38,618 bases of DNA from Prochlorococcus sp. AG-418-G18 (GTDB taxonomy: Bacteria; Cyanobacteriota; Cyanobacteriia; PCC-6307; Cyanobiaceae), in contig QCLX01000012.1 of assembly GCA_003214215.1 (NCBI GenBank), positions 1 through 38,618 of the forward strand, written 5' to 3'. Shown here piece by piece: positions 3,469 through 23,417 of this stretch. The notes below the pieces were generated by a model. It worked only from the letters and a program-made list of their open reading frames with translations, did not search any database and was not told the DNA's origin. A program made the position numbers and the translations under genes. Position 1 is the stretch's first letter, and each line of letters begins with the position of its first letter.

Positions 3469-4947
3469 TTATTTAATTTCATTATTTCTTCCATACAAAT
3501 CATCGAATCTAATTATGTCATCTTCTCCTAAATAATCACCACTCTGTACTTCAATCAAAGCAAGTTTAATTTTGCCAGGATTAGATAATCGGTGTTTCGC
3601 ACCTAGTGGAATAAAAGTACTTTGATTTTCAGAAAGAATGAAAATTTTTTCATTAATTTGAACACGAGCTGTCCCCTCAACTACGGTCCAATGTTCAGCT
3701 CTGTGATTATGCATCTGAAGTGAAAGAGTTGAACCTGGATTTACTTCTATTCTTTTAACTTGCCATCTTTTATCTTGTATTAAAGAAATATAGTTGCCCC
3801 ACGGCCTGTAGATCTTTTTATGGAGTACCCCTTCTTCAAACCCGTTAAATTCAAGATTTGATACAACTGACTTTAAATGATCTGAATTTTTTTTATCAGA
3901 GATGAGAATCGCATCCTGGGTTTCAATTACTATTAAATTTTTTAAACCAAGGGTTACTAAAAGTCTATTTTCACTTCTTATATAACAGTCTTTTGAATCA
4001 TTATCTACCACTTTACCTTTAATAACATTACCTGAAGAATCCTTTTCTTCTTTAGCCCATAAAGATTTCCAGCTACCAATATCACTCCAGCCAGCATCTA
4101 AAGGTATTACTATGCCTAGATTTGTTTTTTCCATGACAGCTATATCAATTGGTATATTTGGTGATTTTGAAAATTCGCTAGGATCAATTCTTATAAAGTC
4201 AAGATCATTAACATTTTTACTAATTGCTTTATTACATTGATCTAATACCAAAGGAGCATGTTTTTTAAGTTCTTTCAAAATTAGGCTGGTTTTAAAAATA
4301 AACATTCCGCTATTCCAAGTAAATTTATTACTTTTAATAAATTTCATTGCTAATTCTTTGTCAGGTTTTTCAATGAATTTTTTAATTTCTGATCCATTAA
4401 TTTCACCTTTCTTAAAGATAGATTCACTTTCTATATATCCATATCCTGATTCTGGATATTCAGGAATTATTCCAAAAGTTACTAGTTTATCTTTCTCTGC
4501 GTAACTAATACCCTTTTTTAAAACTTTTTGAAAAATAGTAATTTCTTCAATGATATGATCAGCAGAAAGAATTAATAAAAGAGTATCTTCTTCAAAAAAT
4601 TCTTGAGCTTTTATTGCTCCTAATGCTATTGCAGGCGCAGTATTTCTACCCTCATTTTCTAGAATTATAGCTTTTGGTTTTACTCCTATTTCTCTCATCT
4701 GCTCAGCCACTATAAATCTATGTTCTTGATTGCAAATAATAATTGGATCATCTAAGCCTTCTAATCCTAATAGTCGTTGGTGGGTGTTTTGTAATAAAGA
4801 ATTTTTATTCTCTCCATATAGAGATAAAAATTGTTTTGGATAACTTTTTCTTGATAAAGGCCAAAGCCTCGTACCTTTACCTCCGCATAAAATTAAAGGG
4901 ATAACTTTTATCATTTTTTTACTATGAGAAGATTTTTTAATTTTCAC
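3469..4947 (-). CDS. manC: mannose-1-phosphate guanylyltransferase / mannose-6-phosphate isomerase
   Basis: Bifunctional enzyme: isomerises fructose-6-P to mannose-6-P and makes GDP-mannose from mannose-1-P and GTP in the cytosol. The N-terminal nucleotidyltransferase domain carries GGKGTRLWPLSR (about residues 22-33) and YPKQF, with FIEKPD as a further family element. The C-terminal type II isomerase cupin (about 375-485) shows RPWGNY, QMHNHRAEHW and FIPLGAKHRL with the metal-binding His residues in place. Length 492 is slightly above the usual 460-480 because of a short basic N-terminal lead; a second ATG at codon 12 (4914) is an alternative start. It ends the minus-strand block starting at 12095 and supplies GDP-mannose for Gmd elsewhere in the window. 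The phosphomannomutase needed between its two steps is not visible here. Confidence 0.95.
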   Translation of the reverse strand: MKIKKSSHSKKMIKVIPLILCGGKGTRLWPLSRKSYPKQFLSLYGENKNSLLQNTHQRLLGLEGLDDPIIICNQEHRFIVAEQMREIGVKPKAIILENEGRNTAPAIALGAIKAQEFFEEDTLLLILSADHIIEEITIFQKVLKKGISYAEKDKLVTFGIIPEYPESGYGYIESESIFKKGEINGSEIKKFIEKPDKELAMKFIKSNKFTWNSGMFIFKTSLILKELKKHAPLVLDQCNKAISKNVNDLDFIRIDPSEFSKSPNIPIDIAVMEKTNLGIVIPLDAGWSDIGSWKSLWAKEEKDSSGNVIKGKVVDNDSKDCYIRSENRLLVTLGLKNLIVIETQDAILISDKKNSDHLKSVVSNLEFNGFEEGVLHKKIYRPWGNYISLIQDKRWQVKRIEVNPGSTLSLQMHNHRAEHWTVVEGTARVQINEKIFILSENQSTFIPLGAKHRLSNPGKIKLALIEVQSGDYLGEDDIIRFDDLYGRNNEIK

Positions 4948-4966: not shown

Positions 4967-6199
4967 TTATTCTCTTATTTTAAAATTACTATATTTCTGA
5001 ATAAATGGGATTATGATCTTCTCTAAAGAATCAAGTCGATAATAATTTTTACTTTTATTTGCCACTTCATATCCCTTATTTATTAATTCCTTTCTTAGGT
5101 GTTTATTTTCAAGTAATTTTAAAAGACACTCAGATAATGTATCGGGATCATTTAAATCTATTAATAATGCCGCATCACCAACTTGATCTCTTAACCCCAT
5201 TAAATCTGGATAAATTACTGGCACACCTAAATTAAAAGCTTCTAATGGAGGCAGATTTGTTGGGCCAAAGAAAGTTGGCATTACCAAAGCGATTGAGTTT
5301 TTATAAAGCATAACTAATTCTTCATCTGAAACAAAATCTGTAAAAAATAATCTATCTTGTATTTTTAGCTCGTTTGCATATGATTTAATTCTTTTTTTGT
5401 TTCCTTTATCTTCTCCTGAGAAAACCATACTTAATTTAATATTATGTTTTTCCTGAAGAATATATATGCCCTTCAATATAAAAAAATGATTTTTATGTGG
5501 CCAAAATTGAGCAGGATAAAAAATATATTTATTTTTAATTTTATCTTTATAGGATGTATTAAATGACTTATTATTTTTAGCTGATTTGACTTTGTACATG
5601 GGCTCAAATGGTATTACGCATATTCTCTCTTCTTCAATATTATATTTCTTTGATAAATTTAATTTTCCATATTCTGAGTCAACAATAATTGATATTGCTC
5701 TCTTGGTAGCATAATTTATTCTTAGTTCTCGATTTTCGAATTCCCCTTTTAATTTTATTTCTGGAAACTCTACATGATCTCTATGGCATAGATCCCATAT
5801 TGTAAAGATAAAGTTTATTTTCTCCAGATCTAATGCAAATCTTGATGGTGAAATAAAGTAAACTAGATCTATTTGTTTTTTTGCTAAAAATGACTCAAAG
5901 AAGTTTGTATCAATTATTAATTTTAATAATTTATATATAACTCTATATTTAGCAGTCGTTTTAATATATAAATATAATTTTTTTATTAAAGAAATATTTA
6001 TTAATTCAGAATCAATCCCGTTTTCTTGTAGTTTATTTGCTAATTTTCTTTTTGTATGAAAAACCGATATTTTTGCTAATTTGGGATTAATTTTTAAAGC
6101 TAAAATTGCAGCATTTAATCCTTGTTGATAACCTCCTCCGGAGGAGACCTCTTGATCAAAAATTAGAGCAATATTTATTGGGTTTTCAAATGTATTCAT
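4967..6199 (-). CDS. GT4-family glycosyltransferase
   Basis: Retaining GT-B glycosyltransferase (group 1), probably adding mannose or a derived sugar from a GDP donor on the cytosolic face. The N-terminal domain starts NIALIFDQEVSSGGGYQQG, a typical acceptor-side glycine-rich loop. The C-terminal donor domain shows YPAQFWPHKNH near residue 230, VMPTFFGPTNLPPLEAF near 325 (the acidic motif of the family) and GVPVIYPDLMG. Length 410 is normal. Its ATG overlaps the stop of the upstream aminotransferase gene by one base (TAATG), so the two are probably translationally coupled. Specificity is inferred only from context. Confidence 0.85.
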   Translation of the reverse strand: MNTFENPINIALIFDQEVSSGGGYQQGLNAAILALKINPKLAKISVFHTKRKLANKLQENGIDSELINISLIKKLYLYIKTTAKYRVIYKLLKLIIDTNFFESFLAKKQIDLVYFISPSRFALDLEKINFIFTIWDLCHRDHVEFPEIKLKGEFENRELRINYATKRAISIIVDSEYGKLNLSKKYNIEEERICVIPFEPMYKVKSAKNNKSFNTSYKDKIKNKYIFYPAQFWPHKNHFFILKGIYILQEKHNIKLSMVFSGEDKGNKKRIKSYANELKIQDRLFFTDFVSDEELVMLYKNSIALVMPTFFGPTNLPPLEAFNLGVPVIYPDLMGLRDQVGDAALLIDLNDPDTLSECLLKLLENKHLRKELINKGYEVANKSKNYYRLDSLEKIIIPFIQKYSNFKIRE

Positions 6200-7314
6200 T
6201 ATTGAATAAAATTCTTGAGGACCTCTGATACTTTCTTGATATTTTCAAATTTTAAATTAAGACCACTTGGTAAATAAAAACCTTTTTTATAGAGGTCCTC
6301 AGAAATAGGAAAAGGTTTGTTATCAAATATGCCCATCTCTTTGAAAACGGGTTGTTTGTGCATTGGATAAAAAAATGGTCTAGTACCAATATTAGAAACC
6401 TTTAATTTGCCCATTATTTCCTCTGCTGTTGAAATCTCAGAATTAATTAAAATACCATAAACCCAATAAATATTTTCAGCATAACTAGTTTTTTTTAGAG
6501 GAGTTTCTAAACCTCTTATACCCTCAAGGAATTGATTATAGATTTCCCCATTTTTAATTTTAACTTTAATTATTGATTCTAGTTTTTCTAATTGTGCTAT
6601 TCCTAGTGCTGCTTGTAAATTAGTCATCCTATAATTCCATCCCAATTCTTCATGAATAAAGCGTTTGTTTTTTTGAAAACATAAATTTCTAAGTGATTTA
6701 CACCTATTACTTATTTGTATATCATTAGTAACAACCATCCCCCCCTCACCTGTAGTGATCTGTTTATTTGGATAAAAACTAAATGTACTTATATGTCCAA
6801 ATGATCCACATGGATTATTTTTATATTTAGCACCTATTAATTCTGCTGCGTCCTCAATCACAATTAATTTGTATTTGTTAGCTATTTCTAGAAGAGGATC
6901 CATATCGACTGGTAAGCCATAAATATGAACAGCCATTATTGCGACAGTTTTTGAAGTTATTGATGCCTCTATTTCTTTAACATTCATATTCCATGTCTTT
7001 GGATCTGCATCAATAAGTACAGGTTTTGCTCCTCTTCTTATTACTGAGGAAGCACATGAGATTATTGTAAAAGTTGGCATTATTACTTCATCGCCTGGAC
7101 CTATATTTAGAGATGCGACTGCCAAATCTAATGCGGCAGTACCACTAGAGCAAGAAATACCATATTTTCGATTAACTTTATTACTAAAGGAATTTTCAAA
7201 TCTTTCTACAAATGGTCCTTCAGATGAGATCCATCCAGTATCAATACATTCTATTAAAAGTTCTTTTTCCCTTTCACCTAAGGAAGGCTCGTTTACTGGT
7301 ATAAATTTATCCAT
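6199..7314 (-). CDS. DegT/DnrJ/EryC1 sugar aminotransferase, GDP-perosamine synthase-like
   Basis: PLP enzyme that aminates a keto-sugar nucleotide. In residues of the 371-aa product: GWISSEGPFVERFE near 27-40, SCSSGTAALDLA near 54-65, EDAAE at 154-158 (Asp contacting the PLP ring) and FYPNKQITTGEGG with the Schiff-base Lys at 184. RPFFYPMHKQP near the C-terminus closely recalls perosamine synthases (RfbE/Per), which act on GDP-4-keto-6-deoxymannose, the Gmd product; gmd is in this window. The frame is open further upstream to 7416, but that extension lies inside the preceding methyltransferase gene and lacks family resemblance, so ATG 7314 (MDKFIPVNEPS) is the start, giving an 8-base overlap. 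GDP-perosamine synthase is likely; a related amino-sugar product is possible. Confidence 0.88.
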   Translation of the reverse strand: MDKFIPVNEPSLGEREKELLIECIDTGWISSEGPFVERFENSFSNKVNRKYGISCSSGTAALDLAVASLNIGPGDEVIMPTFTIISCASSVIRRGAKPVLIDADPKTWNMNVKEIEASITSKTVAIMAVHIYGLPVDMDPLLEIANKYKLIVIEDAAELIGAKYKNNPCGSFGHISTFSFYPNKQITTGEGGMVVTNDIQISNRCKSLRNLCFQKNKRFIHEELGWNYRMTNLQAALGIAQLEKLESIIKVKIKNGEIYNQFLEGIRGLETPLKKTSYAENIYWVYGILINSEISTAEEIMGKLKVSNIGTRPFFYPMHKQPVFKEMGIFDNKPFPISEDLYKKGFYLPSGLNLKFENIKKVSEVLKNFIQ

Positions 7315-8056
7315 TTTTTTTAAAAATAAAGTATATTCCCCAAGTATCAAGTGATGGATTTGCACCAGTAAGTAATTCTTTAAAATCAATAACTTCAAAG
7401 CCAGTCTTTTGTGCAAAAAATTTTAATTCTGGAATCGAGAAATATCTCATTGGATGTATCTCTTCTGTTATTTTTAATTGATTTGAATTAGAATTTAAAT
7501 CATAAAATGTATATTTTACATTGACTTGATTATTATTAACTAATAACTCTGGCTCAGCGATTCTTGTTATGTAGTTACTTTCAGTTTTAATTTTTTTAAC
7601 TCTAATTGTTGGCTTTTGATGAAGAACTGCCGGACCATACCATACGTCAAATAAAAATAAACCATTTTCTTCAAGGCTCTCATAGGCAGTTTTAAAAACA
7701 GACAATAAACTCTCATTTGACACTTGATAACTTATTACATGAAATAATGAAATCACACTATCAAACTTTTCTCGAAGTTTGAATTTCGTTATATCTCCTT
7801 GCCTACATTCAAAATTTTTAATTTTTTCTGCAGAATTTATCATTTGAATACTTTTTTCAATGCCAAGTATCTTATAACCAAATTCTGATAATATTTTCGC
7901 ATGTTTTCCTGTCCCACATCCAAGTTCTAATAGCCTTTTACCTTTTATATTATTCTCTATAAGTTTTTCATGGATGCATCTAGCTTCATTTGCATAATCT
8001 TTATCTTTATAAAAAAGATCATAATATTCGCCTGAATTAAAAAGTGTATTTTTCAC
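7307..8056 (-). CDS. class I SAM-dependent methyltransferase
   Basis: Probably methylates a sugar or sugar nucleotide. The SAM-binding motif I is LLELGCGTGKHAKIL (about residues 42-56), followed by GIEKSIQMI (acidic ribose-binding Glu) and later DSVISLFHVISY and LFLFDVWYG, all typical of the Rossmann-like fold. Length 249 matches sugar N-methyltransferases. The start is GTG at 8056, overlapping the stop of the cupin gene by one base (TAGTG), and its end overlaps the aminotransferase by 8 bases. The tight link to the aminotransferase suggests it may N-methylate the amino sugar; that is inference. Confidence 0.8.
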   Translation of the reverse strand: MKNTLFNSGEYYDLFYKDKDYANEARCIHEKLIENNIKGKRLLELGCGTGKHAKILSEFGYKILGIEKSIQMINSAEKIKNFECRQGDITKFKLREKFDSVISLFHVISYQVSNESLLSVFKTAYESLEENGLFLFDVWYGPAVLHQKPTIRVKKIKTESNYITRIAEPELLVNNNQVNVKYTFYDLNSNSNQLKITEEIHPMRYFSIPELKFFAQKTGFEVIDFKELLTGANPSLDTWGIYFIFKKNG

Positions 8057-8529
8057 TATTCAATAATAATTTTATTTTTCGAAACGAATTCGAATCTAGA
8101 TTTATCAATATTACCAGCGAAAGGACCTTGCTTGACCTCTATTATTTCAGAGTCTTCAAGCATTTCAAATCCGTGGCCGCCAAAAGAAAGTAAAATTACA
8201 TCACCAGTGTGCAATATTTTACTTTTTAAGTATGTTTTATCAGCTTTATAGAAATCAACTCTAACTAGCCCTCTTTTTATGAAAAGGACCTCTTGAGTGT
8301 AATTAATAGTTCGTTCAACTTCGTTGTGAATGTGTGGTTGAATTTTATATCCCTTATTTCTATTCATATAACCTAATTGCTGAGAAAAATTAGAAGGGGT
8401 AAAAAAGTTAATACCTTCTTTCTTATAGGAAGTTCTGAGAATTATTGCTAAAAGTTTTTCATCTTCAAAAATGTGTTCAATATAACTTCTTTGATCTGTA
8501 TTATTGAGATGATTATAAGATTCAGGCAT
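8056..8529 (-). CDS. small cupin-fold protein
   Basis: A 157-residue single-domain protein with a cupin pattern: PHIHNE with His66 and His68 as probable metal ligands, VLFIKRGLVRVDFY as the following strands, then GDVILLSFGGHGFEML as the second conserved cupin box. Similar-sized cupins in sugar clusters include sugar-nucleotide ketoisomerases (FdtA/QdtA) and epimerases, so a role in shaping the keto-sugar before amination is possible. It is also possible that it is a regulator-like or lyase cupin; no motif decides. It is coupled directly to the methyltransferase downstream (TAGTG) and follows the ABC transporter by 16 bases. Cupin fold is likely, function unknown. Confidence 0.65.
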   Translation of the reverse strand: MPESYNHLNNTDQRSYIEHIFEDEKLLAIILRTSYKKEGINFFTPSNFSQQLGYMNRNKGYKIQPHIHNEVERTINYTQEVLFIKRGLVRVDFYKADKTYLKSKILHTGDVILLSFGGHGFEMLEDSEIIEVKQGPFAGNIDKSRFEFVSKNKIIIE

Positions 8530-12277: not shown

Positions 12278-12910
12278 ATGGCGATTGTAAATAAATTTAA
12301 ATTTAGAGATTACACTAAAGAATTAATAAAAGCATTAGATTTAGTTGACCAAAAACAAATTGATCAATTTTTTGATGTATTTAATTCTTACGTTGGGAGT
12401 AATTCAAATATTTTTCTTTTAGGAAATGGTGGAAGCCAAGCTAACGCTCATCATATCTCAGGAGATTTCATAAAAACATTTTCTTTAGCTGGCCTAAAAT
12501 TAAAAATTTCATGCTTAGCAGATAATGTTTGTCATTTAACTGCAGCTTCAAATGATCTTTCTTATGATGATGCTTATAGTATTTTGGTTGATAATTTAAT
12601 AGATAAAGAAGATTTTTTGATATATTTATCTGGAAGTGGGAATTCTATAAATTTGGTTAAATGCGCTAGAAAAGCTAAGTTAAGGAATATTAGGCAAGCA
12701 GCTTTAACTGGTTTTAATGGCGGAGCTTTGAAAGAAATTGTTGATTATCCAATACATGTTAAATTTGACGATATGGAAATTTGTGAAGATATTCAATTAT
12801 CAATTTTCCATTATATAAAACAAAGATTGATAACTAAATATTCTGATTATTTTACTAATTTGGATTTACCCAAATACCAAAAAAGAACATTAGAGGATCT
12901 TATTTCATGA
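12278..12910 (+). CDS. gmhA: sedoheptulose-7-phosphate isomerase (SIS domain)
   Basis: First step of heptose activation: converts sedoheptulose-7-phosphate to D-glycero-D-manno-heptose-7-phosphate. The SIS-domain phosphate-binding motif IFLLGNGGSQANAHHISGDF (about residues 45-64) is very close to family members, followed by CLADNVCHLTAASND and LSGSGNS near 108-114, the second phosphosugar-binding loop. At the C-terminus EDIQLSIFH gives a Glu-x7-His pattern where E. coli GmhA has Gln-x7-His as zinc ligands. Length 210 is normal. It overlaps the kinase gene by four bases (ATGA). A general SIS sugar isomerase is the only alternative, and the neighbours make heptose firm. Confidence 0.9.
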   Translation: MAIVNKFKFRDYTKELIKALDLVDQKQIDQFFDVFNSYVGSNSNIFLLGNGGSQANAHHISGDFIKTFSLAGLKLKISCLADNVCHLTAASNDLSYDDAYSILVDNLIDKEDFLIYLSGSGNSINLVKCARKAKLRNIRQAALTGFNGGALKEIVDYPIHVKFDDMEICEDIQLSIFHYIKQRLITKYSDYFTNLDLPKYQKRTLEDLIS

Positions 12911-13899
12911 TTTACATTGGTAAATCACCATATAGGGTATCTTTATTGGGTGGTGGTTCAGATTTAGATTGGTTCGTTAAGCAAGAAAAATTTGGGATTT
13001 GTTTGGGATACTCATTAGATAAATACTCCTACTCAGTTTTAAATGTGCTCCCATCAATTTCTAAAAAAGGTATATTGGAATATTCGACTAGAGAAGAGTA
13101 TAAAAATGCTGATGAAATTGTTCATCCAATTGTTAGAGAAGTTTTTTCATATTTTGAGATTCCTAATTATATAGAGTTAAAAACCTTCGGATTCGCTTCT
13201 GGAGGATCTGGATTAGGAGGCTCAGCTTCATTCCTTTTATCATTACTGAGCTCATTATCTAGAGCATTTGATTTTAGGCTTTCCAAAGATCAAATAATTG
13301 AAAAAGCTTGTTTTTTGGAAATTCATAAATTAAGTAAACCTATTGGTAAACAGGATCAATATTTATGTGCAAACGAAGGATTTAATTCATTTACTTTTTT
13401 TGAAGATAATAGTGTCAAGAAAAATATCCTTTCAAATCAAAAAAAAGAAGTCTTAAATAGATTATCTGATAGCTTTTATTTAATCCCAACAAATAAAAAA
13501 AGAAGTTCAGATTCTGTTTTAAAAACAATAAAAAACGATGGAGAAGCTTCACAAAAAATTATTAATATTAGAGAAATTGCAGTAAATTTCTTAAATTTTG
13601 ATGATCTTAGAGATTATAAAATTGAAGAATGTTTCAATAATTCAGTAAGAGATTCTTGGATAATCAAAAAATCTATTTCTAATACAATGAATAGTACTTT
13701 AAGTGAACAATATGATTTGATAGATCACTTAATCCCAAATAATTGGATAAGATTGATTGGTGCTGGTAATGGAGGATATTTTCTTGTCTCTTCTAAAGTT
13801 GATCAAAATAAAATTAAAGATATATCTTCAAAAAATGGTATAAAAGGTATTTTCAAAGCAAAACCTTCAAATGAAGGGATATCAAGCTTTCAGATATGA
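12907..13899 (+). CDS. hddA: D-glycero-D-manno-heptose 7-phosphate 1-kinase (GHMP family)
   Basis: Phosphorylates heptose-7-phosphate at C1 to give the 1,7-bisphosphate. The N-terminus YIGKSPYRVSLLGGGSDLDW is the GHMP substrate loop, and GGSGLGGSASFLLSLL (about residues 99-114) is the ATP-binding P-loop of this superfamily. IGKQDQYLCANEGFNSF near 155 is characteristic of heptose/sugar kinases of the HddA group, and IGAGNGGYFLV near 280 is the C-terminal glycine-rich motif. Length 330 is typical. ATGA overlaps exist with both the upstream isomerase and the downstream fused gene, indicating coupled translation. Confidence 0.9.
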   Translation: MIYIGKSPYRVSLLGGGSDLDWFVKQEKFGICLGYSLDKYSYSVLNVLPSISKKGILEYSTREEYKNADEIVHPIVREVFSYFEIPNYIELKTFGFASGGSGLGGSASFLLSLLSSLSRAFDFRLSKDQIIEKACFLEIHKLSKPIGKQDQYLCANEGFNSFTFFEDNSVKKNILSNQKKEVLNRLSDSFYLIPTNKKRSSDSVLKTIKNDGEASQKIINIREIAVNFLNFDDLRDYKIEECFNNSVRDSWIIKKSISNTMNSTLSEQYDLIDHLIPNNWIRLIGAGNGGYFLVSSKVDQNKIKDISSKNGIKGIFKAKPSNEGISSFQI

Positions 13900-15140
13900 A
13901 AACCAAAAAATTTGACGCAGTTGTAGCTTGTGGAGGATATGGGACTCGTTTAAAGGCGTTAACAAATGATATCCCAAAGCCTCTTTTTTTATTGAATGGT
14001 AAGAGTACTCTTGAAAGATGTATAAAAGAATTAGATACTTATCAATTTAAAAATGTCATCCTAACAATTGGATTTAAAAGCAATAAGTTTTTTGAATTGA
14101 TAGAACAATTAAATAAAAAATATCGAATCAACATAGAAGTATTTTTAGAAAAAAAACCTATGGGTGAATGTGGGGCTCTATGGATAATAAAAGATAAATT
14201 ATGTGATGATTTTTTATTTATCAACGGTGATATTATTTTCTCGATTGAGTTTAAAAAATTACTGAATTTCCACAAGAGATTATCTTCTAATTTAACTTTA
14301 GTTACCCATACTTGTGATCATCCTGAGGATTCAGATTTAGTATCTGTTCCAAATGGATCTCTTGTTGAAGATATTTTTCTGAAAGGTAAAAACAAAGAAA
14401 TCAAAAAAAATGCATATCTTGGAAATTCTGGTATTTGTGTAATTAATAAATTTTCATTAGATAAAATTGGACCTCCTATTAAAAATCAATCAAATTCAAT
14501 TTTTCATTACATAGTAAAAAATCTTTTTGATTTGAATATTAATGTTTTTTCGTATAACACTACTGAGTATATAAAAGATATGGGAACACCTAAAAGATTC
14601 CGGGTCGTAGAAGAAGACTTATCAAGCAATAAAGTGAACAAAAAAAACTACATTAATTTGCAAAAAACATTATTTTTAGATCGAGACAATACACTTATAA
14701 AGTGTGAAACTGGAAAATATATTTTAAAAAAAGAAGATATTGATTTTTACAGAGAGAATATAGAGAAAATTATACCAATATCTTTAAATTATGATTTCGT
14801 TTGTTTGATAACTAATCAACCAACCATATCAATGGGTAAATTAAGTTTAAAAGACTTAAATGAAATCAACAGTTTGATTATTAAATTTTGTCTTTCAGTT
14901 GGCTTGAAAATCGATGTAGTAACATTTTGTCCACATCATCCTCATAAAGGGTTTGAAGGCGAAATACAAATACTTAAACAAGATTGTTTCTGCAGAAAAC
15001 CCAATCCTGGTTTATTCTTTGAACAGTCTTTTTTAAGGAATATTGATCTCAAGGAATCCTTAATGATAGGTGATTCCCAGAATGACTTATTTGCGGCTCT
15101 TAATGCTGGTTGCAAATTTTTGAACGTTAATGATTTATGA
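13896..15140 (+). CDS. fused heptose-1-phosphate guanylyltransferase (HddC) and heptose-bisphosphate phosphatase (GmhB)
   Basis: One 414-residue protein carries two activities. Residues 1 to about 240 are a sugar nucleotidyltransferase: CGGYGTRLKALTNDIPKPL (12-30), FINGDIIF (108-115, metal Asp), and DMGTPKRF (228-235). Residues about 258-414 are a HAD phosphatase: LFLDRDNTL (259-267, nucleophile Asp), LITNQP, the zinc-site pattern C345-x-H347 with C364-x-C366, and GDSQNDLFAA (392-401). GmhB removes the C7 phosphate and HddC then adds GMP, so the fusion couples the last two steps to GDP-heptose. Separate genes are more usual. The nucleophile motif has Asn (DRDN) where GmhB normally has Gly. 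ATGA overlaps join both neighbours. Domain identities are confident. Confidence 0.88.
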   Translation: MKTKKFDAVVACGGYGTRLKALTNDIPKPLFLLNGKSTLERCIKELDTYQFKNVILTIGFKSNKFFELIEQLNKKYRINIEVFLEKKPMGECGALWIIKDKLCDDFLFINGDIIFSIEFKKLLNFHKRLSSNLTLVTHTCDHPEDSDLVSVPNGSLVEDIFLKGKNKEIKKNAYLGNSGICVINKFSLDKIGPPIKNQSNSIFHYIVKNLFDLNINVFSYNTTEYIKDMGTPKRFRVVEEDLSSNKVNKKNYINLQKTLFLDRDNTLIKCETGKYILKKEDIDFYRENIEKIIPISLNYDFVCLITNQPTISMGKLSLKDLNEINSLIIKFCLSVGLKIDVVTFCPHHPHKGFEGEIQILKQDCFCRKPNPGLFFEQSFLRNIDLKESLMIGDSQNDLFAALNAGCKFLNVNDL

Positions 15141-17060: not shown

Positions 17061-17885
17061 TTAAATTATTAAATCAATTAAATTAGATTTAAATTTCTGA
17101 AACAAAAAATATACAAAGAAAATTCTAGATGGGAATATAAATTTAATTAAGAAAATAATTTTTCTTATATAAGAGATATTTTTATTTGAGATTATATCTC
17201 CAATTAATTTTTTGGATGGTTTAGTAGAAGATACGCCATCCAAGAAAAACTTAATGACAGGTGATTGTATATAAACCACTTTATCTGCATTTTCTATTAT
17301 TTTTCTTTTCCAATATCCATCTCCAATTAAATTATACTTCTTTGTGAAATCAAATCTATTAGCTAATTTCCTAGAAATAAGCATAGTTTGGTGATTTGGT
17401 TCAAAATATCTTAGCCATTTATTTATATTTTTTAATCTTTTGCCAGGAAAAAACCAATTGAGCTTATTATTAGCAATAATTTTTGCCTGTCCAAATATCA
17501 ATCCAAATTGATTATCTATATTTAAGGAGTTTCTGAAAAATAATTCTAGCGATCCTTTATTATAAAATTTATCTCCGCTATTTAAAAAAATAATGTATTT
17601 GCCTTTAGAAAATTTTTTACCATAATTCATGCATGGATATATTCCATTTATATTTAGATCTTTTGAATTTATATGATTAATTGATATTTTATCTTCTTTA
17701 GAAAAATTTTTTGTTATTTCATTTTTATTTTTTATAAATTTTTTTTTGTTTGAGCCATCTATAATTATCCATTCAACATTAAATTTTTTTTCTTGTTTTT
17801 TTATACTTCTTAGAGTTCTAAGGAATTTTAAATTGTCATCTTTGGTAAGTGTTATTATTGAGATCTGAAAATTAAATTTTAACAT
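17061..17885 (-). CDS. GT2-family glycosyltransferase (WcaE-like)
   Basis: Predicted inverting GT-A transferase of 274 residues. ISIITLTKDDNLKFLRTLRS (about residues 9-28) and WIIIDGSN (about 39-46) open the nucleotide-binding fold; GIYPCMNYGKKFSKGKYIIF followed by LNSGDKF (near 80-106) is the usual WcaE-type region, with SGD at the DXD place. EPNHQTMLISRKL further on is also typical. A hydrophobic C-terminal stretch (IIFLIKFIFPSRIFFVYFLF) may associate with the membrane. It is a single minus-strand gene between a convergent epimerase (2-base gap) and a divergent HlpA-like gene (59-base gap). Sugar specificity unknown. Confidence 0.78.
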   Translation of the reverse strand: MLKFNFQISIITLTKDDNLKFLRTLRSIKKQEKKFNVEWIIIDGSNKKKFIKNKNEITKNFSKEDKISINHINSKDLNINGIYPCMNYGKKFSKGKYIIFLNSGDKFYNKGSLELFFRNSLNIDNQFGLIFGQAKIIANNKLNWFFPGKRLKNINKWLRYFEPNHQTMLISRKLANRFDFTKKYNLIGDGYWKRKIIENADKVVYIQSPVIKFFLDGVSSTKPSKKLIGDIISNKNISYIRKIIFLIKFIFPSRIFFVYFLFQKFKSNLIDLII

Positions 17886-17944
17886 TTAGCTTACCTAAAC
17901 ATATACGATAGCTATATTAAAATAATTTAAAAGAAATCCTTAGC

Positions 17945-18907
17945 ATGGATGATATAAAAGATTTACCTACTTTAATACTAGGTTATAACAGATTTGATAA
18001 ATTCACTAGATGCATAACAACTTTAAAAGAAAAAGGTATTAAAAAAATATATGTTTGTATAGATGGGCCAAAAAATGATTTTGATAAAGAAAGCCAGGAA
18101 AAAATAATAAATTTTTGTTCAAATAATAAACTTGGGTTAAAGATACAATTAAAAAAGCTAGATAAAAATTATGGTTGTAGATTAGGACCAATTAAGGGAA
18201 TTTCTTGGTTCTTTGAAGAGAATAAATATGGAGTCATTTTTGAAGATGATGTGGTAGTTTCTAGAAAATGTTTGGAAACCTTCTCAATATTATTAAAAAA
18301 ACATTTTTTTAATGACAATATTATGTCTATTTCTTCTTTTAATGAATTTACTAGCAAAAGAGTTGAATCAATATATGAGATTCCAGTTTGGCGAAGTTGG
18401 GGATGGGCTACTTGGGCGAATAAATGGAAAATGCATTTAAATTTTTCAAATAGTATTAAAGACTTTAATATTTGGAAAATATATAATTTGTTACCTAAAG
18501 AATTTAGATTGATTGAAACGGCAGAACTATTAAAGTCATGTCAATTAAACCTAATGGATGCTTGGGATTATGAATTTAATTTTTCTCATATAGTTAATAA
18601 AAAAAAATCATTAACTATTGGAGGTATCAATAATTATGTTTATGGATTTGATGATTCTGCTACTCATACAAAGAATATTGAAAATATAGAAATTGATTTT
18701 AAACTATTTTGTGAGAGAGAAATAGATACAAGTCAAATAATAAAACTTAAAAAAATTGATGAAATTTATACATTAAGGAAATGTGGTTTCTTTGCATCAA
18801 AGAAGAAAAATATATTTTCTTCGACCATAGATTTCTCAAAATCTAGGCTTTATTCTTTAATTTTTTATTTAAGAATAATTAAAAGAATTTTACATAAAAA
18901 TTTTTAG
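17945..18907 (+). CDS. HlpA-like glycosyltransferase, paralogue of the one at 1168
   Basis: Same architecture as the gene at 1168. PTLILGYNRFDKF opens the fold; CIDGP lies near residue 40, KNYGCRLG near 75, FEDDVVV near 99, and WRSWGWATW near 149. DDSATHTKN near the C-terminus also matches the first copy (DATHTKN). The EDD and WGWATW motifs fall at nearly the same residue numbers in both, so they are true paralogues that have diverged strongly. Likely a sugar transferase with a GT-A fold; the substrate is not known. The ATG start is clear and shares a 59-base divergent region with the minus-strand GT2. Confidence 0.75.
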   Translation: MDDIKDLPTLILGYNRFDKFTRCITTLKEKGIKKIYVCIDGPKNDFDKESQEKIINFCSNNKLGLKIQLKKLDKNYGCRLGPIKGISWFFEENKYGVIFEDDVVVSRKCLETFSILLKKHFFNDNIMSISSFNEFTSKRVESIYEIPVWRSWGWATWANKWKMHLNFSNSIKDFNIWKIYNLLPKEFRLIETAELLKSCQLNLMDAWDYEFNFSHIVNKKKSLTIGGINNYVYGFDDSATHTKNIENIEIDFKLFCEREIDTSQIIKLKKIDEIYTLRKCGFFASKKKNIFSSTIDFSKSRLYSLIFYLRIIKRILHKNF

Positions 18908-18950: not shown

Positions 18951-19889
18951 TTGGCTTTAATTTTTTCTTCTGGTGGAGGGAGACTTGGTAATCAATTACT
19001 TAATATTATTCATTTGAATGCCTTCGCATTTGAGTATGATTTAGATATATATAAGATTAATGACTTATATATAAAAAGTAAAAATAGAAAATTTATATAT
19101 AAACTTGAAAGAAATAAAATTAATTGGGAAATTGTTTCCGATTATTCAAGAGAAAAAAAATTTGATAAATTATTTCTGAAGATTTATATCAGGATGATCC
19201 ATCTATATTATTTTATACACCCAAATAAAAAATCTTACAAAATTGTACTAAATTATAATTTGCATAAATTTATTTTTGGAATTAGCCTAAAAAAAAATTT
19301 CTCTATATGTAATTTAATTAAAGAAGCCAAGAAAAAAAATATTGTTTTGTCAGGATGGGGATTAAGAGATTGGGATTTAGTCTTAAAGCATAAAGCATCT
19401 ATTGTTAGAAATTTGTTTGAAGGATTTTTACCTATTCTTAAGTTTGAGAAAAAGATAGAAGGTGATTATTTATTTGTTCACATGAGAAGATCAGATTTTT
19501 TAGAGATAGCAGAATTTAAAGAACTTAACTTTTCGGATGAGGTATGGTTGAAATCAATTATTAAAGTTTGCAATATTGAGTCTATTAAAAAAGTAATAAT
19601 TTTTAGTGATTCTAATATTGATAATTTAATTATTTCTGGATTAGAGAAAAATAAAATTGATGTTTTTATACCTAACCAACAAATAAATCAAAATAATTTA
19701 TTTTTGGATCTATTTGTGAATTATTTATTTAATGCTAAATCTGTTATTTGTAATTCATCAACATTAGTTTTAAGTATATCTTTTTTGTTTAAGGAAGAAG
19801 TATATTTACCATCTATAAGAACAGATTTTCAGAAGATATTTCTAAATAATGCTCATAATTCTTATCCGACTTCATTAAATTGGAATTAG
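18951..19889 (+). CDS. GT11-like (alpha-1,2-fucosyltransferase family) glycosyltransferase
   Basis: Likely transfers fucose or a related 6-deoxy sugar from a GDP donor. FSSGGGRLGNQLLN (about residues 5-18) corresponds to the family's N-terminal GGLGNQ motif, and DYLFVHMRRSDF near 170-181 to the HxRRxD(Y) donor-binding motif. FSDSN near 220 and ICNSSTLVLS near 263 match the later motifs of the fold. Length 312 is usual. The start is TTG at 18951; the glycine motif is only seven residues in, so little could be added upstream. It converges on and overlaps fcl by four bases, which suits a fucose function because fcl makes GDP-fucose. Confidence 0.72.
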   Translation: MALIFSSGGGRLGNQLLNIIHLNAFAFEYDLDIYKINDLYIKSKNRKFIYKLERNKINWEIVSDYSREKKFDKLFLKIYIRMIHLYYFIHPNKKSYKIVLNYNLHKFIFGISLKKNFSICNLIKEAKKKNIVLSGWGLRDWDLVLKHKASIVRNLFEGFLPILKFEKKIEGDYLFVHMRRSDFLEIAEFKELNFSDEVWLKSIIKVCNIESIKKVIIFSDSNIDNLIISGLEKNKIDVFIPNQQINQNNLFLDLFVNYLFNAKSVICNSSTLVLSISFLFKEEVYLPSIRTDFQKIFLNNAHNSYPTSLNWN

Positions 19890-20890
19890 TTTTTTTTATT
19901 CCTCAAATTGTTTTCTTTGAAATCATTTTTATATTCTTCATATGTAAGTTTTAATCCTTCTTGAAGTGATATTTTTGAATACCAACCCAGACTACTTAAT
20001 TTTGAAACATCTAAAAGTTTCTGGAAAGTACCATCTGGCTTATTGGAGTCCCAAATTATTTTTCCATCAAATGATGTTATTTTGGCAATCATTTCTGCCA
20101 GTTCTTTTATTGATATATCTATCCCTGTACCAACGTTTAACCAAGTTAAAGGTTCACCTAATTCATCTTTTGGTGCATATAAATCATTTGGATCCCAATT
20201 CTCCAATGCAAAAATACATGCTTCAGCTAAATCATCAACGTGCATGAACTCCCTTCTTGGCATGCCCGAACCCCAACATTCTACAAAATCTTTATGCTCT
20301 ATTTTGTGGACATGGAATCTATCTAATAATGCGGGCAATACATGACTATTGTATTTGTGATAATTATCACCTTTGCCATATAGATTTGTTGGCATAAGTG
20401 AAATTGCATCGAATCCATATTGTTTTCTTAATGCTTGACATATTTTGATACCGCTTATCTTCGCTAAGGCATACCATTCATTAGTTCTTTCAAGTGAACT
20501 TTTCAATAATTCTTCTTCTTTTATTGGCTGCTTTGAATATTTAGGATAAATGCAACTACTTCCTAAAAATAGTAATCTTTTGGAATCATTTTTCCAAGCA
20601 TTTTCAATAACATTATTTTGGATTTTTAAATTTTCTAGTAGAAAATCTACTGGGTATTTGTCATTTGCATATATCCCACCTACCTTTGCTGCTGCTAGGA
20701 TTACTACATCTGGTTTTTTTGCTCTGAACCAATTAGAAACTAATTCTGTTTTTGTAAGATCAAGCTCTTCTCTCGATGGGCATTCTATATTTAAATATTT
20801 ACATTCATAAAGTTTCCTTTTTATTGCACTACCTACCATGCCATTTGCACCTGCAATAAATATTTTATCTTTATTATTAATTAAGGACAT
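19886..20890 (-). CDS. fcl: GDP-L-fucose synthase
   Basis: Epimerase-reductase turning GDP-4-keto-6-deoxymannose into GDP-L-fucose with NADPH. FIAGANGMVGSAI (11-23) is the nucleotide-binding loop (usual form AGHxGMVGSA), AAAKVGGIYAN (66-76) and SSCIYPK (111-117) are strongly diagnostic of this enzyme, and WYALAK (139-144) holds the catalytic Tyr140 and Lys144. NLYGKGDNYH and SHVLPALLDRFH follow as in E. coli WcaG. Length 334 is close to the usual 310-320. It directly abuts the WcaJ-like gene upstream (stop and start are adjacent). Confidence is high. Confidence 0.95.
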   Translation of the reverse strand: MSLINNKDKIFIAGANGMVGSAIKRKLYECKYLNIECPSREELDLTKTELVSNWFRAKKPDVVILAAAKVGGIYANDKYPVDFLLENLKIQNNVIENAWKNDSKRLLFLGSSCIYPKYSKQPIKEEELLKSSLERTNEWYALAKISGIKICQALRKQYGFDAISLMPTNLYGKGDNYHKYNSHVLPALLDRFHVHKIEHKDFVECWGSGMPRREFMHVDDLAEACIFALENWDPNDLYAPKDELGEPLTWLNVGTGIDISIKELAEMIAKITSFDGKIIWDSNKPDGTFQKLLDVSKLSSLGWYSKISLQEGLKLTYEEYKNDFKENNLRNKKN

Positions 20891-22286: not shown

Positions 22287-23417
22287 TTATTCTTTAGAGC
22301 TACTTATATTGAAACCAGAATTTTTTAAGATCCGTTCTTTCTTTGCTTCTTCTTTATCATTCTCTATCATTTCTTTGATTAGTTCTTCAAGGTTTATCTT
22401 GGGTGACCATCCTAATTTGCTTCTAGCTTTTTTAGAATCACCTAAAAGAAAATCAACTTCTGTTGGTCTGAAGTATCGTGGATCAACTTTTATAACCACT
22501 TCTAAAGTATCTGCTCTTTTGCCAACTTCATTTAATCCTTCACCCTCCCAAATAATCCCTTTATTATTTTCTTTACTCCATCCTAAATAATGTGCACTTA
22601 TTTCAGCAAATTTTCTAACACTTTCAGCTCTACCAGTTGAAATAACATAATCTTCAGGTTTATCTTGTTGCAGCATTAACCATTGCATTTCAATATAATC
22701 TCTGGCATGACCCCAATCCCTCATTGAATTTAAGTTTCCAAGAAAAAGATATTTATCAAGACCAGCATCGATTCTCGCTAGTCCTCTTGTGATTTTTCTT
22801 GTAATAAAAGTTTCTCCTCTCCTTGGACTCTCGTGATTGAATAAAATTCCATTACAAGCATACATACTATATGCCTCTCTATAATTGACCGTTATCCAAT
22901 AGGCATAAAGTTTAGATGCACCATATGGACTTCTTGGATAAAAGGGAGTCTTTTCATTCTGTGGGGTTTCTTGTACCAAACCATAAAGTTCACTTGTACT
23001 AGCCTGATAGATTCTTGTTTTATTTGTTAGACCTAGAATTCTAACCGCTTCTAGAATTCTGAGTGTGCCTAAAGCATCGCAGTTGGCTGTATATTCTGGA
23101 GTCTCGAAACTAACTGCCACATGACTTTGAGCCCCTAAGTTATAGATCTCATCAGGTTCAATATCTTTTATAAGTCTTATTAAATTAGTACTGTCTGTTA
23201 AATCTCCATAGTGCATAAAAAATTTAGGATTAAAATCATGTGGATCTTGATATAAGTGATCTACTCTTTGTGTATTTAAACTACTACTTCTTCTTTTGAT
23301 TCCATGCACTTCATAATTTTTTTCTAAAAGAAATTCAACTAGATAACTACCGTCCTGTCCTGTTACTCCAGTAATTAAAGCTTTTTTTTTCGGAGTTAAT
23401 TTTTTTTCATTTTTCAT
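22287..23417 (-). CDS. gmd: GDP-mannose 4,6-dehydratase
   Basis: Converts GDP-mannose to GDP-4-keto-6-deoxymannose, the branch point to fucose and perosamine. [19 protein letters not shown] (13-31) is the signature NAD(P)-binding start, GIKRRSS (about 37-43) is the Gmd-specific loop, and STSELYG with SPYGASK (Tyr-x3-Lys) supply the catalytic groups. [18 protein letters not shown] and [10 protein letters not shown] are further diagnostic stretches. Length 376 is normal. Its substrate comes from ManC (3469) and its product feeds Fcl (19886) and probably the DegT enzyme (6199), which lies in a different operon of the same island. Confidence 0.97.

Follow-up and report, generated by a model that had tools for sequence, protein, structure and literature searches.

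One described route to an amino-6-deoxymannose linked to guanosine diphosphate (GDP) is the mycosamine pathway of the polyenes (AmphDIII, AmphDII), which combines GDP-mannose 4,6-dehydratase (Gmd) with an aminotransferase of the perosamine-synthase kind and for which a 2022 review names no identified ketoisomerase acting on the GDP sugar (PMC8944477). The same review knows of no 3,4-ketoisomerase for GDP-4-keto-6-deoxymannose, allows for a spontaneous conversion, and states that Gmd and the aminotransferase had not yet yielded GDP-mycosamine from GDP-mannose in vitro (PMC8944477). The FdtA/QdtA 3,4-ketoisomerases (PF05523) are small cupins found beside a sugar aminotransferase. In antibiotic biosynthesis, the tylosin route uses a ketoisomerase, an aminotransferase and an N-methyltransferase, and mycaminose is made by a ketoisomerase, a 3-aminotransferase and an N,N-dimethyltransferase from 4-keto-6-deoxyglucose linked to deoxythymidine diphosphate (dTDP); the methyltransferases DesVI, TylM1, KedS8 and CalS10 belong to antibiotic pathways. 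Here we describe a gene cassette in a contig of Prochlorococcus sp. AG-418-G18 (C12, 38,618 nucleotides, analyzed at its full length and referred to as the window) that encodes a cupin, an S-adenosylmethionine (SAM)-dependent methyltransferase, a DegT-type sugar aminotransferase and a GT4 glycosyltransferase. The cassette is alike in kind to the antibiotic amino-sugar routes but has a PerA-type aminotransferase and an unrelated cupin; this cupin, like FdtA/QdtA, is small and stands beside a sugar aminotransferase, and its presence sets the cassette apart from the polyene pathway, in which we know of no N-methylation of mycosamine.

With a probability of roughly 0.55, the window carries a mobile four-gene cassette that makes an N-methylated amino-6-deoxyhexose and attaches it in a surface polysaccharide. 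The gene identities and overlaps, the conserved association of the genes, and the family and fold resemblances of their products are direct results, from which we infer the following pathway. The input would be a nucleotide-activated 4-keto-6-deoxyhexose, most likely GDP-4-keto-6-deoxy-D-mannose supplied by the Gmd encoded in the window (Table 1). The putatively metal-dependent cupin would work on the keto sugar alongside the aminotransferase; it is probably an isomerase or epimerase and would determine where, or in which configuration, the sugar is aminated. The aminotransferase, with its cofactor pyridoxal phosphate (PLP), would then install the amino group. The methyltransferase would methylate that nitrogen once or twice, in preference to carbon or oxygen, replacing the usual N-acyl cap, and the GT4 enzyme would probably transfer the finished sugar.

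The four genes form one chain on the minus strand. The initial annotation of the window had described the cupin, methyltransferase and aminotransferase genes as a cassette, and these were found in place, chained by 1- and 8-nt overlaps: the cupin stop codon and the GTG start of the methyltransferase gene overlap by 1 nt (TAGTG), and the methyltransferase and aminotransferase genes by 8 nt. A fourth coupled gene had been missed, namely the GT4 gene, which lies outside the range given at that time and meets the aminotransferase gene in a TAATG overlap. The open reading frame of the aminotransferase spans mechanically 6199-7416; the start that fits the family is the ATG at 7314, and it was adopted here. 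Genes on the same strand extend the run in both directions: upstream lies an ATP-binding cassette (ABC) transporter, downstream a GDP-mannose pyrophosphorylase. The absence of an acetyl- or formyltransferase noted previously held for the 30 window proteins scanned with Pfam, none of which matched such a family at 1e-3, in a scan that covered neither the other open reading frames of the window nor the rest of a 1.15 Mb genome that is 66% complete (G+C low, 0.288 in the window).

The association of the genes was examined in 44 loci (4 plasmid, 35 genome-contig and 5 whole-genome loci), a count that leaves out the window itself, the short loci L001-L009 and the distant cupins of L054 and L055 and that applied limits of 350, 85 and 130 bits against the aminotransferase, methyltransferase and GT4 proteins of the window, respectively. 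These loci are not all independent, because a single draft genome contributed both L039 and L047, and L025 is apparently almost identical to L027. In 38 loci from several phyla, the cupin has the aminotransferase at a distance of at most 2.5 kb. Within 5 kb of the cupin, the methyltransferase was found in 33 loci (scoring no higher than 89-101 bits in L010, L038, L040-L042 and L046) and a relative of the GT4 protein in 18. Both cupin-aminotransferase-methyltransferase and cupin-methyltransferase-aminotransferase orders were seen. The carriers comprise relatives of the window genome, Bacteroidota, several classes of Proteobacteria, one Puniceicoccaceae, and some draft candidate-phylum and archaeal genomes. 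Since the arrangement recurs across phyla, it is not a product of chance. Sequence distances of the cupins correlated with those of the aminotransferases (r 0.54 over 31 loci, one of them the window; highest value in 1000 permutations 0.34) and of the methyltransferases (r 0.66, 28 loci; permutation maximum 0.26), with host kinship retained in both values.

Six of the 44 loci have no nearby aminotransferase. L018 stops at the cupin, and the other five genomes (G216, G228, G217, G225 and G181) encode the aminotransferase elsewhere at 52-59% identity, with the methyltransferase found at 1.5e-74 or better in four of them and weakly in G228 (1.4e-31). In G181, a genome of the same class that is 100% complete in one contig, the cupin gene is at 2,503 kb and the aminotransferase and methyltransferase genes are at 1,551-1,553 kb, so that the two halves are ~0.95 Mb apart. 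When the proteins of 197 relatives were searched, 6 genomes proved to have a close cupin (two more cupins were distant, with 26% and 29% identity), 7 the aminotransferase (E ≤1e-100), and the same 7 the methyltransferase (E ≤1e-50). Six of these seven have the cupin; the exception, G031, is 58% complete, and its contig of 4,921 bases breaks off 57 bases past the match to the aminotransferase, in the direction in which the cupin is frequently located. Among 72,556 plasmid records the cupin occurs in 8, of which 4 were fetched for the locus comparison, and these same 8 are the ones with the aminotransferase at 44% identity or above; a search at 1e-60 matched 29 records in all, and the one ranking after these 8 reaches 39%. 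When 11 genomes were compared, the cupin was accompanied by the aminotransferase (at least 49% identity) in 10 and by a strong methyltransferase match in 7, with a weak one in G228. The cupin is thus bound more tightly to the aminotransferase than to the methyltransferase (10/11 versus 7/11 genomes). In phage records, the cupin gave one weak match (28.8%) and the aminotransferase none at 1e-60; of the 7 stretches that a pattern scan picked out in IMG/VR contigs, none was cupin-related.

Some individual loci have peculiarities. The cassette is present on short contigs labelled Gracilibacteria (L014) and Calditenuaceae archaeon (L030), for which misbinning is possible, and the cupin start of L030 is cut off by the contig end. 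L037 (Paraburkholderia) contains a second, apparently decayed cupin copy at 17574-18011 (42 bits). The cupin match of G029 (L004; C10:111392-111799) holds one TAA within the match, and the frame used was 9405-9800 of L050.

The aminotransferase belongs to DegT_DnrJ_EryC1 (PF01041, 3.9e-111). Its best solved relative is the perosamine synthetase 3bn1 (E 3.6e-86; 40.5% identity over 365 residues), which bears out the perosamine-synthase-like assignment of the initial annotation. PerA (3bn1, 3dr7) shares with it the DegT family, full-length alignability and a conserved lysine: Lys184, which we take to be the PLP-holding residue, is invariant in 33 of 33 cassette enzymes and aligns with a lysine of 3bn1. 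A profile of these 33 enzymes gave 418.7 bits for 3bn1, 353.1 for the sugar aminotransferase 7b0m and 270.5 for QdtB; the NCBIfam LegC model gave 333.1 on the window enzyme, below its cut-off of 420. In a tree of 48 sequences with an arbitrary root, a single PerA and several long branches flagged, 35 cassette aminotransferases form one group (94/96), whose nearest neighbors are PerA, 7b0m and two other aminotransferases of the fetched loci (87/90), with WecE, ArnB and an FdtB-like enzyme outside. Judged from its sequence, the window enzyme is PerA-like but appears to sit in a clade of its own, which differs from PerA also in traveling with the cupin. The review puts the polyene GDP-perosamine synthases at 69-73% identity to the mycosamine synthase AmphDII and at only 36-40% to the perosamine synthases of Gram-negative lipopolysaccharides, and reports no residues that discriminate polyene GDP-perosamine from GDP-mycosamine synthases (PMC8944477). 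Resemblance to PerA therefore cannot tell amination at C4 from amination at C3, and the choice between a 3-amino and a 4-amino sugar is one that sequence cannot decide.

The window cupin has no Pfam match at 1e-3. Forty aligned cupins gave weak Pfam matches only (E ≤0.1) to 12 families, generic cupin models among them (best E 0.0026). His66, His68, Glu80 and His119, presumably the usual cupin metal ligands, are invariant in all 40, as are Gln51, Asp110, Glu131, Lys133 and the G-P of the QGP motif; the invariant His-x-His/Glu/His set suggests a metalloenzyme. The nearest named family is WbuC (TIGR04366), which all 40 match at E ≤0.1 (best 2.3e-11) and which is a distant relative, as the window protein scores 20.8 bits against a curated cut-off of 42. 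Two other genomes of the genus (G021, L055 9300-11880; G071, L054 6689-9226) have distant cupins directly next to a Gmd-like dehydratase and to a DegT aminotransferase distinct from that of the cassette, and the cupin of G021 passes the WbuC cut-off at 43.7 bits.

The initial annotation had considered an FdtA-like ketoisomerase and pointed to structure prediction against FdtA/QdtA. The cupin model (predicted local distance difference test, pLDDT, 91.2) has mostly nucleotide-sugar cupins as structural neighbors (FdtD Z 7.8, ChmJ and RmlC 7.5, WbcA 7.1; dioxygenases ~6), all at Z <8, which may reflect a common arrangement only. The ketoisomerase domain of FdtD does head the list (101 aligned residues, 3.9 Å), tied with RmlC-type cupins, and the best Foldseek E was 0.027. 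Membership in the FdtA family was not borne out by sequence: PF05523 is absent from the 12 families matched at E 0.1, the cupin profile finds no FdtA chain at E 10, and hhalign gave a probability of 0.3% against an FdtA alignment of two sequences only. A phmmer search with an FdtA relative did find FdtA chains (2.2e-38 to 4.3e-24). By eye, two FdtA relatives carry Gln where the cassette cupin has its third putative ligand, Glu80. The cupin could nonetheless work like a ketoisomerase while standing outside the FdtA family. A more specific and rather doubtful proposal is that it acts on GDP-4-keto-6-deoxy-D-mannose as a metal-dependent 3,4-ketoisomerase (or epimerase) and that the cassette makes a GDP-linked N-methylated 3-amino-3,6-dideoxymannose (N-methyl mycosamine); it would imply, just as tentatively, that the active site of this cupin family differs from that of FdtA.

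In a single-sequence search, the methyltransferase retrieved DesVI first among solved relatives (1.5e-17). A profile of 33 members ranked DesVI (136.5 bits, 1.1e-38) before TylM1 (up to 120), three uncharacterised proteins (102-115), KedS8 (101) and CalS10 (94). The model (pLDDT 94.3) has the same fold as TylM1 over the full length (Z 27.8, 232 aligned residues, 2.2 Å); TylM1, CalS10 and KedS8 lie at Z 27.3-27.8 and DesVI at 26.7. Although these antibiotic enzymes share its fold, with DesVI and TylM1 as its best-scoring solved relatives, identities in the structural alignments are 18-22% and the cassette sits in polysaccharide loci. The N-methylated sugar suggested by the initial annotation was supported by sequence proximity to amino-sugar N-methyltransferases and not by fold, which ties with C-methyltransferases, and N-methylation is for this reason the best reading from sequence and context.

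Several observations weigh against the proposed N-methylated GDP amino sugar. No close aminotransferase was found in the draft genome G201 (37% at best), where the cupin lies at the contig end, and the methyltransferase was unmatched in three of the 11 genomes (G201, G208 and G211). PerA falls just outside the cassette aminotransferase clade (94/96), and for WbuC, the nearest named family of the cupin, no described reaction was found. The methyltransferase fold is equally near to the C-methyltransferases SgMT (Z 28.0), SeMT (27.8) and PsmD (27.7), and its top structural match is an uncharacterised protein (28.7). Among 40 carrier genomes (L037, L027, L047 and the plasmid loci left out), 4 have only Gmd over the cut-off (G029, G208, G211 and G220), 2 have only RmlB (G207 and G226, in the latter of which a Gmd-like protein reaches 403.6 bits, short of the cut-off of 415) and 4 have neither (G071, G197, G201 and G212). 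Gmd is also widespread in the relatives as such (149/197; RmlB 100/197), and the window genome itself has an RmlB (379.1 bits, cut-off 365.1).

The best-surviving alternative is that no isomerization takes place and that the product is GDP-4-amino-4,6-dideoxymannose methylated at N4, with the cupin as an accessory protein; we regard this N-methylated perosamine as possible though unlikely. It would agree with PerA as the closest solved structure to the aminotransferase, with a Gmd gene within the window, and with the occasional separation of the cupin gene from the other two (G181, 2,503 versus 1,551 kb). Yet the cupin would then be superfluous, because Gmd and perosamine synthase suffice for perosamine according to the review (PMC8944477), and nearly every checked genome with this aminotransferase clade has the cupin; the clade is also apart from the single PerA of the tree. 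As an accessory, the cupin might serve, for instance, in side-product removal, protection of the keto intermediate or tailoring of another position, and this alternative differs from the N-methylated amino-sugar cassette proposed above only in the role of the cupin.

An alternative carrier is dTDP, in a pathway resembling mycaminose biosynthesis. The three activities are the same in kind, the methyltransferase is nearest to DesVI and to TylM1, which is an enzyme of a dTDP-3-amino sugar, and the RmlB of the window's own genome makes a dTDP sugar possible. Co-occurrence was not decisive as a criterion for GDP or dTDP: Gmd is over the cut-off in 34 and RmlB in 32 of the 40 carriers (33 and 31 of 38 when G021 and G071, with a distant cupin only, are omitted), and in 6 and 5, respectively, of the 7 relatives with the aminotransferase. 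The dTDP pathway is nevertheless improbable, as the FdtB-like enzyme, WecE and ArnB fall outside the group of PerA and the cassette enzymes (87/90), the cupin sequence is not FdtA-like, and an E. coli-type RmlB lies within 10 kb of the cupin in 1 of the 44 loci versus 8 for Gmd. The nearby Gmd may serve fucose, because a GDP-fucose synthase is also near in 7 loci. On balance, GDP is the favored carrier nucleotide.

It is quite improbable that the methyltransferase places its methyl group on oxygen or carbon of another polysaccharide residue while the cupin and aminotransferase yield a free amino sugar: the tie with C-methyltransferases in fold, the variable gene order, and the SAR86 genome G208 and the draft G211, which have the other two genes without it, would fit, but amino-sugar N-methyltransferases rank first by sequence and all seven aminotransferase-bearing relatives have the methyltransferase.

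Each enzyme type of the cassette is known, and the literature searched showed no polysaccharide locus in which they are combined with this cupin; among the matches listed in the open-licence literature, a cupin-aminotransferase-methyltransferase cassette for polysaccharide sugars is undescribed, which is no proof of absence. As the cassette recurs in many groups, it connects an uncharacterised cupin family with the synthesis of amino sugars for many surface polysaccharides. Should the cupin isomerize a GDP-keto sugar, it would supply the missing step of the GDP-mycosamine pathway. N-methyl amines would keep a positive charge at the cell surface, which could matter to recognition by phages and grazers. 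The features of the window that bear on this system are listed in Table 1.

Table 1 Genes of the cassette and of the related nucleotide-sugar supply in the window.
Feature	Position	Strand	Basis
Cupin, 157 aa, putative metalloenzyme, distantly WbuC-like	8056-8529	-	Sequence profile, invariant residues, model
SAM-dependent methyltransferase, 249 aa, DesVI/TylM1-like	7307-8056	-	Pfam Methyltransf_23/25, profile, model
Sugar aminotransferase of the DegT type, 371 aa, with GDP-perosamine synthase as closest solved relative	6199-7314	-	Pfam DegT_DnrJ_EryC1, profile, tree
GT4 glycosyltransferase, 410 aa, translationally coupled to aminotransferase	4967-6199	-	Pfam, overlap, 18/44 loci
Mannose-1-phosphate guanylyltransferase/mannose-6-phosphate isomerase (GDP-mannose supply)	3469-4947	-	TIGR01479 650.9 bits, cut-off 372.95
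GDP-mannose 4,6-dehydratase (Gmd), possible 4-keto sugar source	22287-23417	-	TIGR01472 575.1 bits, cut-off 415
GDP-L-fucose synthase, competing user of Gmd product	19886-20890	-	Best solved relatives GDP-fucose synthases, E 1.2e-100

GDP-heptose was not adopted as a general substrate, relatives of the window genes at 12278-12910 and 12907-13899 being near the cassette only in G058 (L049). These genes are part of a plus-strand set at 12278-15140 that encodes a GmhA-like isomerase, an HddA-like kinase and an HddC-like nucleotidyltransferase fused to a GmhB-like phosphatase (414 aa). All genes of the set score under the cut-offs of the heptose models, and the set is likely to be a GDP-heptose gene set.

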